A stretch of DNA of 20,183 bases, taken from a virus. Every line of letters begins with the position of its first letter. Position 1 is the first letter of the stretch. The stretch spans positions 1-20,183 of the IMG/VR virus record IMGVR_UViG_3300006793_000392, one strand, 5' to 3'. The notes beneath the pieces are model-generated. The model saw nothing but the letters and a program-made list of their open reading frames with translations. It was not told where the DNA came from and searched no databases. Positions 8,984 through 19,736 of this stretch are shown one piece after another. A program made the translations under genes and the position numbers.

Positions 8984-9372
8984 TAGAGGAACTACAAGCA
9001 GCAATGCTGGAAATGCCTCAAGCAGAATGCAAAACAGTTCACACGTTCTGTAGTGGTGTTTATGCTAGAGAGATGTTTATTCCTAAAGGCGTTTGTTTAG
9101 TTGGCGCAAAACATAAGACTGAATTTTTTATAACTATAAGTAAAGGTCGATGTGTCATTAAAGACGGCGATAGAGAGCAGATATTTTCAGCTCCCTACAC
9201 TGGCATATCAAAGGTAGGCGCAAAGAGGGCTATCTTGGCGATTGAAGATACTATAATTACTGGTTTTCATCCGACAGATAAGACAGATATTACGGAAATA
9301 CAAAGAGACATTATCGAGGATGAAGGCTTAAAAATAGCCAATAATCACGGGAGTAAATTAGTATGTGGTTAG
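8980..9372 (+). CDS. Cupin-like phage protein
   Basis: 130-residue protein starting with GTG 8980, overlapping the nozzle stop by four bases (GTGA), with GAGG at 8966-8969. The sequence looks like one double-stranded beta-helix (cupin-type) domain: GVYAREMFIPKG, then KHKTEFFITISKGRCVIKDG, then a turn, SAPYTGISKVGAKRAILAIE, and TGFHPT. The KHKTE and FHPT histidines are in positions where cupins bind metal, but too few ligands are clear to claim activity. Small proteins of this sort lie between nozzle and internal virion genes in several podoviruses. A structural or assembly role is inferred from position. It has no signal peptide or membrane segment. Ten bases of its end overlap the next gene. 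Confidence 0.75.
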   Translation: MIEELQAAMLEMPQAECKTVHTFCSGVYAREMFIPKGVCLVGAKHKTEFFITISKGRCVIKDGDREQIFSAPYTGISKVGAKRAILAIEDTIITGFHPTDKTDITEIQRDIIEDEGLKIANNHGSKLVCG

Positions 9373-9770
9373 TTACCGCCGTAGTTGTTGTTTCCGGCGT
9401 AGTTACAGCAAAAGGCCAAATGGATGCTGCGAAAGCGCAAGAATATGAACTAGAAAGACAGGCCGAGCAAGAAAAAATATCCGCAGAAGGTCGAGAGCTA
9501 CAACGCAGACAGCAACTTAACAAGGTGTTAGCTGCTAACGTAGTCGGTCAAGCTACATCAGGCATTGCGGGTGAAGGCACTCCAGAATCTATCGCTTTAG
9601 CGAGCGCAGAACAAGCATCTATTAGTGAAGGTCTTGAAGGTTTAAGCTCAAGGTTGAGGCAGGCTCAACTACAAAGACAAGCTAAAAATGTAGCCTCACA
9701 AGGCAAATGGCAGGCAGCGTCAACCTTGTTAAAAACTGGCACTAAAGCCGCAAAGTTAACTAAGCCGTAA
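9363..9770 (+). CDS. Internal virion protein, gp14-like
   Basis: 135-residue protein with a hydrophobic N-terminus (VTAVVVVSGVVTAKG, residues ~4-18) followed by long charged helices (ERQAEQEKISAEGRELQRRQ) and the segment ANVVGQATSGIAGEGTPESI. Short membrane-plus-helix proteins with this 'GRELQRRQ-x-LN...A..G.A.SGIAGEGTP' arrangement are the podovirus equivalents of T7 gp14, an ejected protein that inserts in the outer membrane to start the DNA channel. Length is shorter than T7 gp14 (196). It is encoded between nozzle and larger internal protein genes, as in T7. The start at 9363 lies inside the previous gene's last codons. No strong ribosome binding site is seen, so translational coupling is likely. 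Confidence 0.78.
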   Translation: MWLVTAVVVVSGVVTAKGQMDAAKAQEYELERQAEQEKISAEGRELQRRQQLNKVLAANVVGQATSGIAGEGTPESIALASAEQASISEGLEGLSSRLRQAQLQRQAKNVASQGKWQAASTLLKTGTKAAKLTKP

Positions 9771-9784
9771 CCGCAGGATTAGCA

Positions 9785-11431
9785 ATGCCAAGACAACAAC
9801 AAGTAAGTTTATTTAGTGCGTTAAGACCTACAGGCGTAGATCCAACCGCAGGGGCTAGATCAAGCGCTATATCAGGCTTATTTGAGCAGGTAGGCGATCT
9901 AGCATTTCAGGAGGGTGCAAAGCGCAGAGAGAAAGAGGGGCGCATTGCTGGCGCTAAAGCTGGGCTAAAGAAGGCCGAAAAAGGTGAAAAACTAGAAGAA
10001 ACAAAAGGTAGTTTATTTAGTATTTACGATCAATCTTATGACGATGCTATGCAGGCAAGTTATTTGGCGGGAGTTGGGAACGATGTAAAGGCAAAACTAT
10101 CACAATTAGCTAGCGATCACTCAACAGACACGGCAGCATTCAGCAAGCTTGCGGGGGAGTATAAAAAAAGCGTTATAGAAAACGTGGAACCTGAAACACA
10201 GTTATTATTAACTCAATCTCTAGATGAAAGCATCACCAACCTATCTATAAAGATACGCGAATCAGAAAAGCAGAAGAACTTAATAGAGGCAGATGACGAG
10301 ATAACGTTAGGAGTTAACGGTAATACGGAATCAGCACTAAGTTTTGCGTTTGAAGGTGATTATAAATCAGCATCTGATAGCCTAGTTAAAGCTAAACACC
10401 TTATCGGCGCTAGACTTAAAAGCGGCGCTATAAGTAAAGTTGAGCATGATAATCAAGTAAAAACCTTAATAGATAGCGTTTACATAGAAGCTAATAGATA
10501 TGCATTCAAAGGGGTTCTAGATAAAGGTGGAGCTATTAAGTTCTTGCAGAAGGTGAAAGATGAGAAGACAAAAGGGAAAACACCAGAGCAGCACAGAAAC
10601 CTATTAAATATTTTACATGCAGATATGACGAATTATTATGACCTGCAAGACAGGCAAGAGCTAAAGGCGAAAGAGGCTAAAGACGACTATCAATTAAGCA
10701 ATGTAGAGGCTCTATGGTTAGGGATGTCATCTGGTGACACTAATCTTAGTAAAATCAACACAGCAATAAAGCTCAACGCTATTAGCTTTGAGCAAGGCAA
10801 ACTATTAACTAACACTTATCATTCGAGAGGGAAGGGTCAAGACGACCCAGAATTAATATTAAATATTAACGAGATGATTTTAGAGGATCCCAAAAAAGCA
10901 AAAGAGATTATCAGGGATAATATCGGTAGTAGCTTGTTATCTGATACGGCAATCACTTTATTCACTAAAGCTAACTCTATTATTGAAGAAGAAAAGGGAG
11001 GCGGAAAGTCAATATTAAACTCAAGCGAATCAAAAAGGTTTAAAAAGTTTTTAGTTGATTCTGTTTTTGATCCGGGTATCGGTGGTTTTGGCACGATAGA
11101 AAACAAAAAGAAAGTAGCCAAGTTAGAGCTGGTTTTTGATGAGCGGATATTGGGCGGAGAGCGTCCAGCAGATGTGGCGAGAGATTTGATCGACGTTGAT
11201 AAGTTTATAGGTTACAACCCCTCGTTTGGTAGCACCGACAATATAGATGAATCGGCAAGACTATTGGTTGAAGAATATCAAAGACAACAAACCTCAAGAG
11301 CTAATCAGCGCACATTAAGTGAAGATGAGTTCAAAAGGCAGTACAATGAAATCCAAGAGTTCAAGAAATACCAAACACTAATAAACCAATTCCACAAATC
11401 ATACGAGGCAGCTTTAAATGAGCGTGATTAG
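9785..11431 (+). CDS. Probable internal virion (ejection) protein, gp15-position
   Basis: 548-residue protein, mostly charged and helical, with no membrane segment or catalytic motif that I can name. The N-terminus (QVSLFSALRPTGVDPTAGAR) is followed by basic helices (KRREKEGRIAGAKAGLKKAE). Several more helix-rich stretches follow, and the C-terminus has YQRQQTSRANQRTLSEDEF. AGGA at 9775-9778 supports ATG 9785. It sits where T7 has gp15, between a gp14-like protein and the large ejection protein, so a role in the periplasmic DNA-ejection tube is the most economical reading. Sequence similarity to T7 gp15 is not evident by eye and the protein is shorter (gp15 is 747). The last 14 bases overlap the next gene in another frame. 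Confidence 0.75.
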   Translation: MPRQQQVSLFSALRPTGVDPTAGARSSAISGLFEQVGDLAFQEGAKRREKEGRIAGAKAGLKKAEKGEKLEETKGSLFSIYDQSYDDAMQASYLAGVGNDVKAKLSQLASDHSTDTAAFSKLAGEYKKSVIENVEPETQLLLTQSLDESITNLSIKIRESEKQKNLIEADDEITLGVNGNTESALSFAFEGDYKSASDSLVKAKHLIGARLKSGAISKVEHDNQVKTLIDSVYIEANRYAFKGVLDKGGAIKFLQKVKDEKTKGKTPEQHRNLLNILHADMTNYYDLQDRQELKAKEAKDDYQLSNVEALWLGMSSGDTNLSKINTAIKLNAISFEQGKLLTNTYHSRGKGQDDPELILNINEMILEDPKKAKEIIRDNIGSSLLSDTAITLFTKANSIIEEEKGGGKSILNSSESKRFKKFLVDSVFDPGIGGFGTIENKKKVAKLELVFDERILGGERPADVARDLIDVDKFIGYNPSFGSTDNIDESARLLVEEYQRQQTSRANQRTLSEDEFKRQYNEIQEFKKYQTLINQFHKSYEAALNERD

Positions 11432-14400
11432 CGGGGCTATAAAAGGGTTGAAAAAATCCAATCCAGACGTTGATTTAATGATAAGAGAGTCAGACGAAGT
11501 TATCACTGTAGATAAAATAGTGGCAAAAGAAAGAGGGCGAGGCGCAGGCTCAAAAGCTATGAGCGACTTGGTTCGCGTGGCTGATGAGCAGGAAAAGGCG
11601 CTAGCTCTAACACCTTCTAGCGACTTTGGCGGAAACAAAAAAAGACTGGAAAAGTTTTATAAAAGATTTGGCTTTGTAGAAAACAAAGGGGTGGAGAAAG
11701 ATTACACAATTAGCGAGTCGATGATCAGACCGAAGCAAAGCGCTACCGCAGGTTTAAGCGTCACATCAGCCCTAATGCTATCAAGCGGCGAAACTCAAGC
11801 GCAGGACGATCTATCATCAAGCTACTTAGACGCTAGAGCTAACTCAAACTTAACACCAGCAGACAAACTACTTAAATCGCTAAAACCAGTTGAGCCAGAG
11901 GATGAGTCTTTTGATTTAATGGCATCAGCAAAAGGTATTGCATCTACGGTTGGCGGAATTGCTTCTGATGTGGTTGGAGGTATTATTGAGGCTCCAAGGC
12001 AGATAGTCGGGGGCATAAGCGAGGGGGTTCAAGAAGCCCTATATGCAGTTGATGACTTAGGCTCAAGCATTGAAGATTTGTTTGGGATGGACGATTGGGA
12101 AACTATTATTCAGTTTGTTGATGAAAAAGGCAATCTTGATATTGAGATGATTACACGAGCAGAAGCAGAGAAGCGCGGCGGAGTGGGTGACATTATGCCG
12201 GAGCTTGATGATCCTAGAACTGTTACTGGTGGACTAATTAAAGGCATCTCACAATTTTTAGTTGGGTTTCTTCCTGGTGTGAAGGCTGTTAAAGCAATGG
12301 GTGTTAAAGGTGCGGTTTCATCTGCTATGGCTGGCGGCGCGATCGCTGACTCAGTTGTATTTGACCCTAGCGACGAGAGACTATCTGATTTAATCGAAGA
12401 ATACCCTGCATTAAGCAATCCAGTTACATCATATCTAGAGGCCGATCCAGAAGATTCAAAAGCAGAAGGGCGCTTTAAAAACGCTCTAGAAGGGTTTGCT
12501 CTTGGGGGTGTAGCTGATACATTCCTAAAAGCTGTAAAGACTGTCAGAGCTAAAACAATCGCATCTAAAGAAGCAAAAGCGGCTAAAGCTGACATAGAAA
12601 AAGCAGAGCAGTTATCAAAGACAAAAGAATTAAAAGTTGACGATACAAAAGAAGGTGACTTTATACCTTTTGAAGAAAAAGCAGCAAAGCAAGAGCAAGA
12701 ATTTAAACAGGCCGCCGGCGTGGCAGATGATGAGGCTGCAAAGAACATTAACCTATCAAGGCTGGAAACTACAGATGACGTAAAAAGCTTGATAGATAAT
12801 GTAGCGGAAGCAGACTCAACCAAGATAAATGAAGCAAGACGCGAAGCTATAACGCTGGAAGAAACTGAAAAACTAGCTGACGACCTAGGTATGACTGTTG
12901 ATGATCTGCTTGATAGACGTAGAGGTCAAGCCTTCAATGCCGAACAAGCTGTCGCGTCCAGAAAAATATTAGTCGCTAGCGGTGAAAAGTTATTTGATTT
13001 AGCTGACAAAGCAAAAGGTGGAGGTGTAGAAGATTTAGCCTTATTCCGCAGAGCAATGGCGCAACATCAAGCCATACAACAGCAAGTATCTGGATTGACG
13101 TCCGAAGCTGGGCGGGCATTGTCAAGTTTTAGAATTATGGCAAAGAGCGCAAAGGAGCAGGAACGAGCTATTAAAGAGGCTTTGGAAGTTGGTGGTGGTG
13201 AAAATGTCACAAGAGGACTAGCTGAAAAAATGGGAGACTTAAAAACAACCCACCAGATAAATCAGTTTGTTGATGGTGCGGCCAAGGCAACAAAGCCTGA
13301 AATGATCTATGAAGCATGGATAAACGCCTTACTATCAAGCCCTGCAACTCATGTGGTCAATGTTGTGTCGAATAGTGTTGTGTCTGGGTTGGCGGTCGGT
13401 GAAAGAAAGATAGCGTCTTTACTTGGACAGGCTAGAGGTTCGGCGGATTCAGTGGCAGTAGGTGAGGCCACAATGCAGTTTAAAGGCATGATCGAGGGTT
13501 ATAAAGATGGAATGAAAATGGCCTGGGATGTTATTAAGACTGGCGAGCCTACTGATCCATTGCAAAAAGCAGAGATGACAAAATTCAGGTCTATAACTGC
13601 AAAAAACCTAAATCTAACAGGAACAGCAGGCAGGGCAGCTGATCTTCTTGGGGAGATAGTTAGATTGCCAGGGCGATTCCTAATGGCTGGTGACGAGTTA
13701 TTCAAAACTATCGGGTATAGAATGGAGTTGAACGCCCAAGCATTTAGAGCAGCAAGCAAAGAAGGCTTAGAGGGTGACGAGCTAGCAGAAAGAATATCCT
13801 CACTAATAACCAACCCGCCGGAAAACTTGCATTTAGAGGCAATTGACACAGGCAGATATCAAACATTCACTAAAGAGCTAGGCGATGCCGGAAAAGCAAT
13901 CCAGTCAGCAAGAGAGAAGGTACCAGGCGCTAAGGTGATCATGCCATTTATTAGAACACCAATAAATATAATGAAGTATGTAGGCGAGAGAACTATTCTA
14001 GCTCCATTATCGCAACGCGTTCGCGCTGAGATTGCGGCGGGTGGTGCGAGAAAAGATATGGCTTTAGCAAAGATAGCAACAGGATCAACTCTAATGGCGA
14101 TAGGTGCTGACTATACGGCATCCGGAGACATTACTGGTAAAGGTCCTGCTAACTGGCAACAAAATAGAATGTTAAGGGAAACGGGGTGGCAGCCTTATTC
14201 GATTAAGATTGGCGACACCTATTACAGTTACAACCGCTTAGATCCTATAGGGGCATTTTTAGGGCTTTCTGCTGATATGTCAGAGATACTTTTGCACGCT
14301 GATGAGAAGGACGGGTTCGACGTGGCTTACGCGTCAATTATGGCAACAGCTCAAAATGTAACCAGTAAAACCTACTTACGGGGTGTTGCTGAGTTCTTTG

Positions 14401-15050
14401 ATATGATGAGTTCAACTAGCTCAGAGGTTGGGGCAGAACAAACAAAAGTTAAAAACTGGATCAAGCGGTTAGCTGGAACAGTTATTCCTTCTGGTGTTGC
14501 ATCACTAGAAAGGGTTATTAGTCCAGAGATGAAAGCAACTTACAGCATCATAGACCACATTAAATCTAGAACGCCAGGGCTATCAGAGGATTTACCTCCA
14601 AGAAGAAATGTTTTTGGTGAGAAGGTGGTTTTACAGGGCGGATTAGGGCCAGACATTTTAAGCCCTGTTTACACAAGTGAAGTAAAGCGTGATTTGGTGA
14701 TTGAAGAAATTGTAGCGCAAGGAACTCCGGTCCCAATGCCAAGAAAAAGCATTATGGGGGTTGAGTTAACGCCGGAGCAATACGATAGATACGTTGTATT
14801 GGCATCAGGCAAAGATAATGCCGAAGTTGACAGAAAACCGATAAAGCAAGCACTTAGGGAGCAATTTAGATCGAGCTTATACAAAGGTTTAGGTAGTGGA
14901 GTTGATGGTGGAAAATCCCAATTAATATTAAATAAATTCTCAGAGTATAAGCAGGCAGCTAGAGCTCAAATGTTTAAAGAATTTCCAGAACTACAAACAA
15001 ACGCAGAGCAGCAATCAACCGAAAAACAACGCAAGATAATGGGCAAATAA
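11418..15050 (+). CDS. Large internal virion / polyvalent ejection protein with N-terminal GNAT domain
   Basis: 1210-residue protein in the gp16 position, expected to be carried in the virion and ejected with DNA. Residues ~17-104 form a compact GNAT-like acetyltransferase: a strand VITVDKIVAK, the acetyl-CoA loop RGRGAG (residues 39-44, fitting R-x-x-G-x-G), then LALTPSSDF and FYKRFGFV (80-87). Next is a short, signal-peptide-like stretch ending TQAQDD (~131). Residues ~306-365 (VVFDPSDERLSDLIEEYP, NPVTSYLEADPEDSKAEGRF), ~635-655 (ALLSSPATHVVNVVSNSV), ~845 (PFIRTPINIMKY) and ~925-950 (YYSYNRLDPIGAFLGL) are recurring blocks of phage large polyvalent/ejection proteins. GAGG at 11405-11408 precedes the ATG. 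A stop codon lies directly upstream in frame, so this start is firm. No lysozyme motif is seen. Confidence 0.85.
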   Translation: MSVISGAIKGLKKSNPDVDLMIRESDEVITVDKIVAKERGRGAGSKAMSDLVRVADEQEKALALTPSSDFGGNKKRLEKFYKRFGFVENKGVEKDYTISESMIRPKQSATAGLSVTSALMLSSGETQAQDDLSSSYLDARANSNLTPADKLLKSLKPVEPEDESFDLMASAKGIASTVGGIASDVVGGIIEAPRQIVGGISEGVQEALYAVDDLGSSIEDLFGMDDWETIIQFVDEKGNLDIEMITRAEAEKRGGVGDIMPELDDPRTVTGGLIKGISQFLVGFLPGVKAVKAMGVKGAVSSAMAGGAIADSVVFDPSDERLSDLIEEYPALSNPVTSYLEADPEDSKAEGRFKNALEGFALGGVADTFLKAVKTVRAKTIASKEAKAAKADIEKAEQLSKTKELKVDDTKEGDFIPFEEKAAKQEQEFKQAAGVADDEAAKNINLSRLETTDDVKSLIDNVAEADSTKINEARREAITLEETEKLADDLGMTVDDLLDRRRGQAFNAEQAVASRKILVASGEKLFDLADKAKGGGVEDLALFRRAMAQHQAIQQQVSGLTSEAGRALSSFRIMAKSAKEQERAIKEALEVGGGENVTRGLAEKMGDLKTTHQINQFVDGAAKATKPEMIYEAWINALLSSPATHVVNVVSNSVVSGLAVGERKIASLLGQARGSADSVAVGEATMQFKGMIEGYKDGMKMAWDVIKTGEPTDPLQKAEMTKFRSITAKNLNLTGTAGRAADLLGEIVRLPGRFLMAGDELFKTIGYRMELNAQAFRAASKEGLEGDELAERISSLITNPPENLHLEAIDTGRYQTFTKELGDAGKAIQSAREKVPGAKVIMPFIRTPINIMKYVGERTILAPLSQRVRAEIAAGGARKDMALAKIATGSTLMAIGADYTASGDITGKGPANWQQNRMLRETGWQPYSIKIGDTYYSYNRLDPIGAFLGLSADMSEILLHADEKDGFDVAYASIMATAQNVTSKTYLRGVAEFFDMMSSTSSEVGAEQTKVKNWIKRLAGTVIPSGVASLERVISPEMKATYSIIDHIKSRTPGLSEDLPPRRNVFGEKVVLQGGLGPDILSPVYTSEVKRDLVIEEIVAQGTPVPMPRKSIMGVELTPEQYDRYVVLASGKDNAEVDRKPIKQALREQFRSSLYKGLGSGVDGGKSQLILNKFSEYKQAARAQMFKEFPELQTNAEQQSTEKQRKIMGK

Positions 15051-19105: not shown

Positions 19106-19179
19106 TCATTATTGAAAAGCCTAGTTGCTATTGCAGTTACTACAACGGATAGCGCTAGGTATATTGAAAAGTAAGTCAT
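19102..19179 (-). CDS. Possible 25-residue membrane peptide downstream of ninG
   Basis: Minus-strand ORF starting at 19179 and ending at 19102. The ATG overlaps the ninG stop by four bases (ATGA). A full AAAGGAG ribosome binding site lies in the last ninG codons, about eight bases before it. The peptide is MTYFSIYLALSVVVTAIATR followed by LFNND: one hydrophobic span of roughly 17 residues with a polar tail, so a single membrane segment. Its stop overlaps the convergent tailspike stop. Small holin-like or regulatory membrane peptides look like this, but no family is recognised. The hairpin at 19120-19159 lies within it and would compete with this reading if it terminates transcription. The ribosome site may partly reflect the Lys-Glu codons of NinG. 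Confidence 0.42.
   Translation of the reverse strand: MTYFSIYLALSVVVTAIATRLFNND
19110..19171. repeat. Inverted repeat flanked by 10-bp direct repeats at the convergent gene junction
   Basis: CCTAG-tt-GCTAT (19120-19131) is complementary to ATAGC-g-CTAGG (19149-19159), ten base pairs interrupted by a small internal loop, with a 17-base loop. The direct repeat TATTGAAAAG occurs on both sides at 19110-19119 and 19162-19171. On the minus strand the stem is followed by CTTTTC, so it could terminate the ninG transcript. On the plus strand TTTTT occurs only about 20 bases later (19179-19183). A weak or bidirectional terminator is plausible. Confidence 0.45.
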
Positions 19180-19736
19180 TTTTGTAGCTCCTTTAATTTT
19201 TCTTTGTAGTATTTTTCAATAACCAAATAATCATCAGGTGTACGCTTCACAGTGCCACCTTGAAGGTTTAACAATTGATTTACAGCAAACTCACCTATCT
19301 TATCAATTAAGTTTTCTTTGTATGAGCCAGAATCACCACCTCTGAAAAAATTACAATCTAGCCGCTGTCCGTGGATATTATCTTCATCATATCTAATTTG
19401 GGGATTATTGCCAGACTCCAGGAAGTGACCAGCATGATAATTTGTTCCTAATGGTTTGCCGCAGCAGATACAAGGCTTTCCTGAGTCTCTAACTCTAATG
19501 TAATCATGGCACGCTTTTTTTGCCGCATCTTTTCGAGTTTTAAGGTTTGATTTCTTCGCTTGATTAATCGCTTTGCGTTCGGCTTGATCAATTTTCTTTC
19601 TCCCTTTATCTTGGTTGTCTATCGACCATTGAACAGCGTGATCTTTAGTGCAAAACCGACCAGAAGGAAACTGAACCATTGTTTCACGCTTAAAATACTC
19701 TTTACAGTGCTTACACCTTAATTTTGCTACACTCAT
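19176..19736 (-). CDS. ninG: NinG-like recombination protein
   Basis: 186-residue homologue of lambda NinG (Rap), a structure-specific DNA-junction endonuclease that promotes recombination between phage and host or plasmid DNA. The N-terminus has a zinc-ribbon-like C8-x2-C11...C29-x3-H33. A Lys/Arg-rich helix (~45-80) follows, then the HNH-like core with C89, C91 and C92, YHAGHF (H101, H104), and C128 in LDCNFFRGG. These are the family landmarks and the length fits (lambda NinG is 204). The start ATG overlaps the stop of the upstream 59-residue ORF (ATGA). AAAGG lies about 12 bases before it, a little far. It is transcribed leftward, toward the tailspikes. As in lambda, the neighbours are short early-type genes. 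Confidence 0.93.
   Translation of the reverse strand: MSVAKLRCKHCKEYFKRETMVQFPSGRFCTKDHAVQWSIDNQDKGRKKIDQAERKAINQAKKSNLKTRKDAAKKACHDYIRVRDSGKPCICCGKPLGTNYHAGHFLESGNNPQIRYDEDNIHGQRLDCNFFRGGDSGSYKENLIDKIGEFAVNQLLNLQGGTVKRTPDDYLVIEKYYKEKLKELQK

Follow-up and report, generated by a model that had tools for sequence, protein, structure and literature searches.

Why should a phage ejection protein, of the kind expected to leave the virion together with the DNA, begin with an acetyltransferase domain? The question is raised by a 20,183-base IMG/VR virus record, the whole of which was analysed and is referred to here as the window. It holds late genes of podovirus type from a marine-type short-tailed phage, namely the terminase end, the portal (PF12236), the capsid (PF19821), tail tubular proteins A and B, three genes in the gp14, gp15 and gp16 positions and, after these, beta-helix tail proteins. 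A NinG/Rap-type recombination endonuclease is encoded in the opposite orientation to the late genes (19176–19736, minus strand). When hosts were sought through the gp16 core among 84,980 genomes, no relatives were found.

The internal virion proteins are encoded consecutively on the plus strand. The gp14-position protein (9363–9770) matches phrog_418 (E = 8e-5), and the gp15-position protein (9785–11431) is assigned by synteny, with no family match in the Pfam or PHROGs scans. The third reading frame (11418–15050) encodes a gp16-like internal virion (ejection) protein of 1210 aa with an N-terminal GNAT cassette; it starts with ATG, shares 14 nt with the end of gp15, stop codon included, and is preceded at about 9 nt by a GAGG. 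The C-terminal part of this protein, the gp16 core (residues 127–1210, 11796–15050, plus strand), is conserved in 80 viral contigs whether or not a cassette is present, and it is an internal virion protein by its match to phrog_6651 (E = 3.6e-58) and, in tblastn, to internal virion protein D of Pelagibacter phage HTVC011P (E = 7e-57). The fusion of a GNAT to a gp16-position virion protein, as originally predicted, is therefore borne out, and homology suggests, as far as homology goes, that the GNAT would be delivered with the genome. In the Pfam scan, no lytic transglycosylase (SLT) domain was detected in the gp14, gp15 or gp16 proteins of the window and no ART domain in the 1210-aa protein, which by family scans consists of the GNAT and the virion ejection domain only.

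The original prediction placed the GNAT at 11466–11729 (residues ~17–104). The family and fold stand, and only the extent needs correcting, with the minimal domain reaching slightly further (~11430–11735, plus strand, residues ~5–105) according to blastp, the family alignment, AlphaFold2, Foldseek and profile searches. Taken alone, the window domain matches PF13508 with E = 0.0019 and misses the Pfam cut-off, and because this single-sequence match is marginal, evidence from the family was needed. In blastp, the domain matches regions within proteins of 932–3875 aa and one 120-codon ORF at 42–64% identity, with a best E of 1e-29 against domains of giant phage and plasmid proteins; the relatives include a “PLxRFG protein” of Klebsiella phage ZX1, a “DarB-like antirestriction” protein of Pseudomonas phage Skulduggery, Acinetobacter plasmid sequences and Vibrio phages. 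The proposed kinship with the GNATs of polyvalent proteins is thus confirmed. An alignment-based scan of viral contigs found 57 loci that match the family, set in giant proteins of 2000–3400 aa (many with HExxH, several with LPD22 or LPD39), in mid-sized ones or standing alone at 117–184 aa, and 42 of 48 members match PF13508. Among the 84,980 genomes, the family occurs at three loci, in Neptunomonas, Janthinobacterium and Vreelandella.

Both motifs on which the original prediction relied are conserved in a 50-row family alignment. In the putative R-x-x-G-x-G acetyl-CoA loop (RGRGAG, residues 39–44, 11532–11549, plus strand), which in GNATs has the form R/Q-x-x-G-x-G/A and joins beta4 to alpha3, R39 is kept in 94%, G42 in 100% and G44 in 76% of members, and in FYKRFGF (residues 80–86, 11655–11675, plus strand) Y81 is kept in 98%, G85 in 96% and F86 in 100%; D56 is kept in 96%. 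A chance motif is ruled out by the 57 viral loci and this strong conservation. The window domain itself has a 2-residue deletion in the beta4 loop and lacks the VP typical of the family (P in 84%). Two relatives deserve mention for their settings. A 932-aa protein (L007:4951–7746) combines a GNAT of this family with sub-threshold matches to a 2'-5' RNA ligase and to the anti-CBASS protein Acb1, company that hints at a counter-defence setting. In Vibrio phage 431E45.1, a solo 107-aa member (L010:7974–8297) precedes, by a few hundred bases, three genes sized like gp14, gp15 and gp16.

Structure prediction agrees with these assignments. An AlphaFold2 model built with eight sequences (helix 6–14, strands 18–24 and 28–36, helix 43–57, strand 61–64, helix 74–82, strand 102–104; pLDDT 73, pTM 0.62) is predicted to be a reduced GNAT, with the acetyl-CoA-binding core and without the first half of the fold. 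In the model, the beta1-alpha1-alpha2-beta2 half is missing, and the domain opens with one short helix followed by the equivalents of strands beta3 and beta4. Nearly all top Foldseek matches are GNATs. Both chains of AcrVA5 (6iuf) rank first in the PDB (E = 6e-5 and 1.6e-4, TM 0.69 normalised by target), with Naa50, GCN5 and RimI next. A search of the PDB with the family profile likewise returned almost exclusively GNAT structures, from E = 1e-4, and AcrVA5 appeared there at rank 15 (E = 0.014) as one of many weak GNAT matches. Membership of the window domain in the AcrVA5 family by sequence was rejected, since its sequence kinship with AcrVA5 is no closer than that with other GNATs. We speak of the same reduced fold and not of an AcrVA5 member because the sequence match is weak and small size favours the structural match.

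The same position can be compared in a sister contig (L015, IMGVR_UViG_3300025133_005230). The two sequences are identical at 127 of 127 positions through 11431, where the gp15 stop codon ends, are unrelated from 11432 to ~11754, and are again 99.8% identical across 8,293 bp to the right; in protein, their gp16 cores share 99.7% identity. Exactly the GNAT has been replaced, in an exchange that begins immediately behind the gp15 stop codon, and the exchangeable cassette DNA of the window (11432–11754, plus strand) has an unrelated segment of ~488 bp in its place. The replacement (L015:114–656) is a conserved phage domain found at 31 viral loci, with invariant R103, D116-W117 and E159 that fit an R-S-E-like ART. 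The Pfam scan gave no ART match for it, and we call it a probable ART because its closest Foldseek matches are ARTs, although they are not significant (prob 0.1). It also matches phrog_2579, “ParB C-terminal domain” (E = 1e-34), a label that may be misleading given the ART-like invariant residues. An assembly chimera is unlikely, as the reading frame is open and in frame through both joins, and is also disfavoured by a left edge that falls exactly after the gp15 stop and by an inserted domain that comes from a conserved family of its own. In a more distant cousin (L017, core 54–56% identical), the protein begins directly at the core, and the cassette is likewise absent in L054–L057, L097 and others. 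One further contig (L016) begins just inside the right-hand join, almost exactly where the cassette ends, a position that fits the coexistence of several alleles in the population. The GC content of the cassette shows no shift (43.7% versus 43.6% for the core).

The exchange is not peculiar to this pair. Across the 80 gp16-core loci surveyed in viral contigs, the proteins fall into two groups, a cassette-free group with 0 to ~50 residues before the core and a group with ~110–485 extra N-terminal residues. The extensions include ART-PolyVal domains (L059, L061, L062, L071 and L112; best E = 7.5e-12 in L112, some under the Pfam cut-off), the domain of the sister contig (L074) and two further kinds that could not be named with confidence (L069/L075 and L076/L083). 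A cassette of ~460 aa precedes the gp16 cores of L075, L078, L079, L081 and L069, where a weak LPD14 match in L069 was the only one obtained; L076 and L083 have a 111-aa extension without a hinge. An apparent extension in L108 was set aside as a probable start-codon artefact. On the core tree, cassette labels change 8 times against a minimum of 5, and the sisters L069 and L074, with cores 92.9% identical, hold unlike cassettes behind a common 15-residue start.

A second gp16 clade holds the GNAT family of the window as a 140-aa internal insertion (L102/L104), and the GNAT has therefore been joined to gp16 at least twice. Nearby in the same clade, L110 has a 177-aa insertion that looks ART-like by eye only. 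The insertions in L104 (5866–6322, compared with L103) and L110 (5771–6337) are bounded by imperfect direct repeats of target sequence of ~36–37 bp, that flanking the GNAT insertion in L102/L104 being 37 bp; neither insertion is present in the siblings L088, L103, L105 and L115 (~98–99% protein identity) or L100 (~96%). Unlike in L104 and L110, no direct repeats of at least 8 nt were found at the cassette edges of the window, between 11381–11470 and 11701–11830. At both joinings, the slot that holds the GNAT is occupied in relatives by a domain of ART-like appearance.

Between cassette and core, the window protein has a hydrophobic, signal-peptide-like hinge (ATAGLSVTSALMLSSGETQAQ, 11742–11804, plus strand), which is suggestive only. 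Such hydrophobic stretches stand behind most N-terminal cassettes (SVTSALMLSSGETQAQ in the window; ALPMAGLMLANQDAQA and LLAGVGGGALLVGITPEEAKA in others), with equivalents in L059, L061, L062, L074 and L112, and are missing from L076 and the internal insertions. Their hydrophobicity lies in the top 2–6% of windows for 8 of the 11 proteins tested, and an A-x-A often follows (T-Q-A in the window). The hinge could be a membrane segment or a cleavage site, which we treat as a lead only. An amphipathic N-terminal leader common to all cassettes was also considered and proved inconsistent by hydrophobic moment.

We consider it reasonably probable that the GNAT on gp16 is an ejected, interchangeable payload that modifies host protein, most likely for counter-defence. 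In this mechanism, the product of 11418–15050 would be a T7 gp16-type ejection protein that serves as carrier, and its N-terminus an interchangeable payload, which in the window phage would be a GNAT N-acetyltransferase in minimal form, belonging to the polyvalent-protein family. The protein would be synthesized late, packaged with gp14 and gp15, and at infection would exit the virion with these two proteins and the DNA, whereupon the GNAT would acetylate a host protein at the very outset, ahead of all phage gene expression. The target would most likely be a variable defence protein, neutralised as AcrVA5 neutralises Cas12a, and not a part of particle building, and the benefit would be limited to some hosts. 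AcrVA5 acetylates Cas12a and, under over-expression, numerous further proteins (PMC9114340), and Cas12a is also inhibited by structural relatives of AcrVA5 that are dissimilar in sequence (PMC10799925). The GNAT and ART domains of injected polyvalent proteins have been proposed to modify host proteins (Iyer et al. 2017, PMC5512222), and the anti-restriction proteins injected from the T4 virion form a variable set in a variable hotspot (PMC12373910). Phages with cores up to 99.7% identical have the payload exchanged or missing, which suggests an accessory, host-dependent function.

Acetyl-CoA is not expected in the periplasm, and a periplasmic N-terminus, as in T7 gp16, is hence the main objection to a GNAT that would have to reach a target in the host cytoplasm. 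In T7, the N-terminus of gp16 remains periplasmic and attached to the gp15 tunnel (PMC8954989). A more specific version, which we regard as improbable when taken in full, holds that the podovirus gp16 slot swaps protein-modifying enzymes, that the GNAT is a virion-delivered, AcrVA5-like counter-defence acting ahead of transcription, and that the hinge takes the cassette across the inner membrane. The slot could then hold a GNAT, several ARTs, other domains without a name, or none, and a cut by host signal peptidase could free the cassette from the gp16 core.

The main rival is that the ejected GNAT acts on host transcription and favours early phage promoters, as do phiKMV Rac, which acetylates the RNAP alpha subunit (PMC7824862), and T4 Alt, which ADP-ribosylates it (PMC5512222). 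The alternation of GNAT and ART cassettes in one slot speaks for this reading, as Rac (a GNAT) and Alt (an ART) share the same RNAP subunit. However, many cousins are cassette-free and the slot differs between near-identical phages, which a host-variable target fits better than the conserved RNAP, and we hold a transcriptional role to be rather unlikely.

Somewhat less likely still is that the GNAT fold has been retained just for structure or for binding DNA/CoA, as an aid to packing or ejection of the protein and with no catalysis. The domain does belong to a virion protein, the window copy has the deletion in its beta4 loop, and the periplasmic site known for the T7 gp16 N-terminus would leave it without acetyl-CoA; against this, R39, G42, G44, Y81, G85 and F86 are all kept and mostly near-invariant in the family, and a swap for an unrelated, probably enzymatic domain, or for nothing, fits a structural role poorly. 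That the GNAT works in the cell that produces the virions, or on components of the phage (self-acetylation, the capsid or internal proteins), instead of in the next host seems highly improbable: the gene is in a late position and solo family copies adjoin late genes in Vibrio phages, but the fusion to an ejection protein would be left without explanation, and published polyvalent proteins with a GNAT of this type are inferred to be injected (PMC5512222).

With an ejected, host-modifying payload as the preferred reading, the locus gains a wider interest. Anti-CRISPRs and other counter-defence proteins are usually made after genome entry, and a payload on an ejection protein would act first. The window and its sister contig, differing in exactly the GNAT cassette, amount to a natural allele-replacement experiment that makes the role of ejected effectors directly testable, and the gp16 slot, with at least two cassette types without a confident name, is a place to seek new effectors. 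Polyvalent proteins that include a GNAT have been described (Iyer et al. 2017, PMC5512222), and both the GNAT domain and the idea of an injected GNAT are already known. Cassette exchange on gp16 was not found described: a literature search, with most subscription journals outside it, returned no account of GNAT or ART payload exchange on gp16, and a review of ejection proteins speaks of swapping for the transglycosylase/lysozyme domain alone (PMC8954989).

Several known systems resemble this one in part. The window protein is like T7 gp16, or internal virion protein D, in core homology and in the gene order gp14-gp15-gp16, but has no transglycosylase domain, the GNAT occupying the N-terminal slot. 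AcrVA5, the GNAT anti-CRISPR of Moraxella, has the same reduced GNAT core in minimal form and is the best Foldseek match, a match that size may drive; it is a solo protein, whereas the window GNAT is fused to gp16. Rac of phiKMV and Alt of T4 are likewise a phage GNAT and ART that modify host proteins early, but Rac is described as a phage-encoded enzyme and not as part of an ejection protein, and Alt is a separate packaged ART. T4 Ip1-3, which are injected anti-restriction proteins, share the character of highly variable accessory payloads that are injected from the virion and encoded at a fixed genomic position (PMC12373910) and differ as separate small proteins with a packaging leader, where the payload of the window is fused to the ejection protein. 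The polyvalent GNATs that form the first family of Iyer et al. 2017 (PMC5512222), found in virion-associated late proteins often of gammaproteobacterial phages, are homologous in sequence to the window GNAT (up to 64% identity to the GNATs of giant phage proteins, a kinship judged via giant phage and plasmid proteins). Those GNATs typically have an ART neighbour in the same chain, whereas the window GNAT forms the N-terminus of a 1210-aa gp16 by itself, in a chain without ART, peptidase or LPD domain, and is exchanged whole for an ART-like domain in the sister phage.
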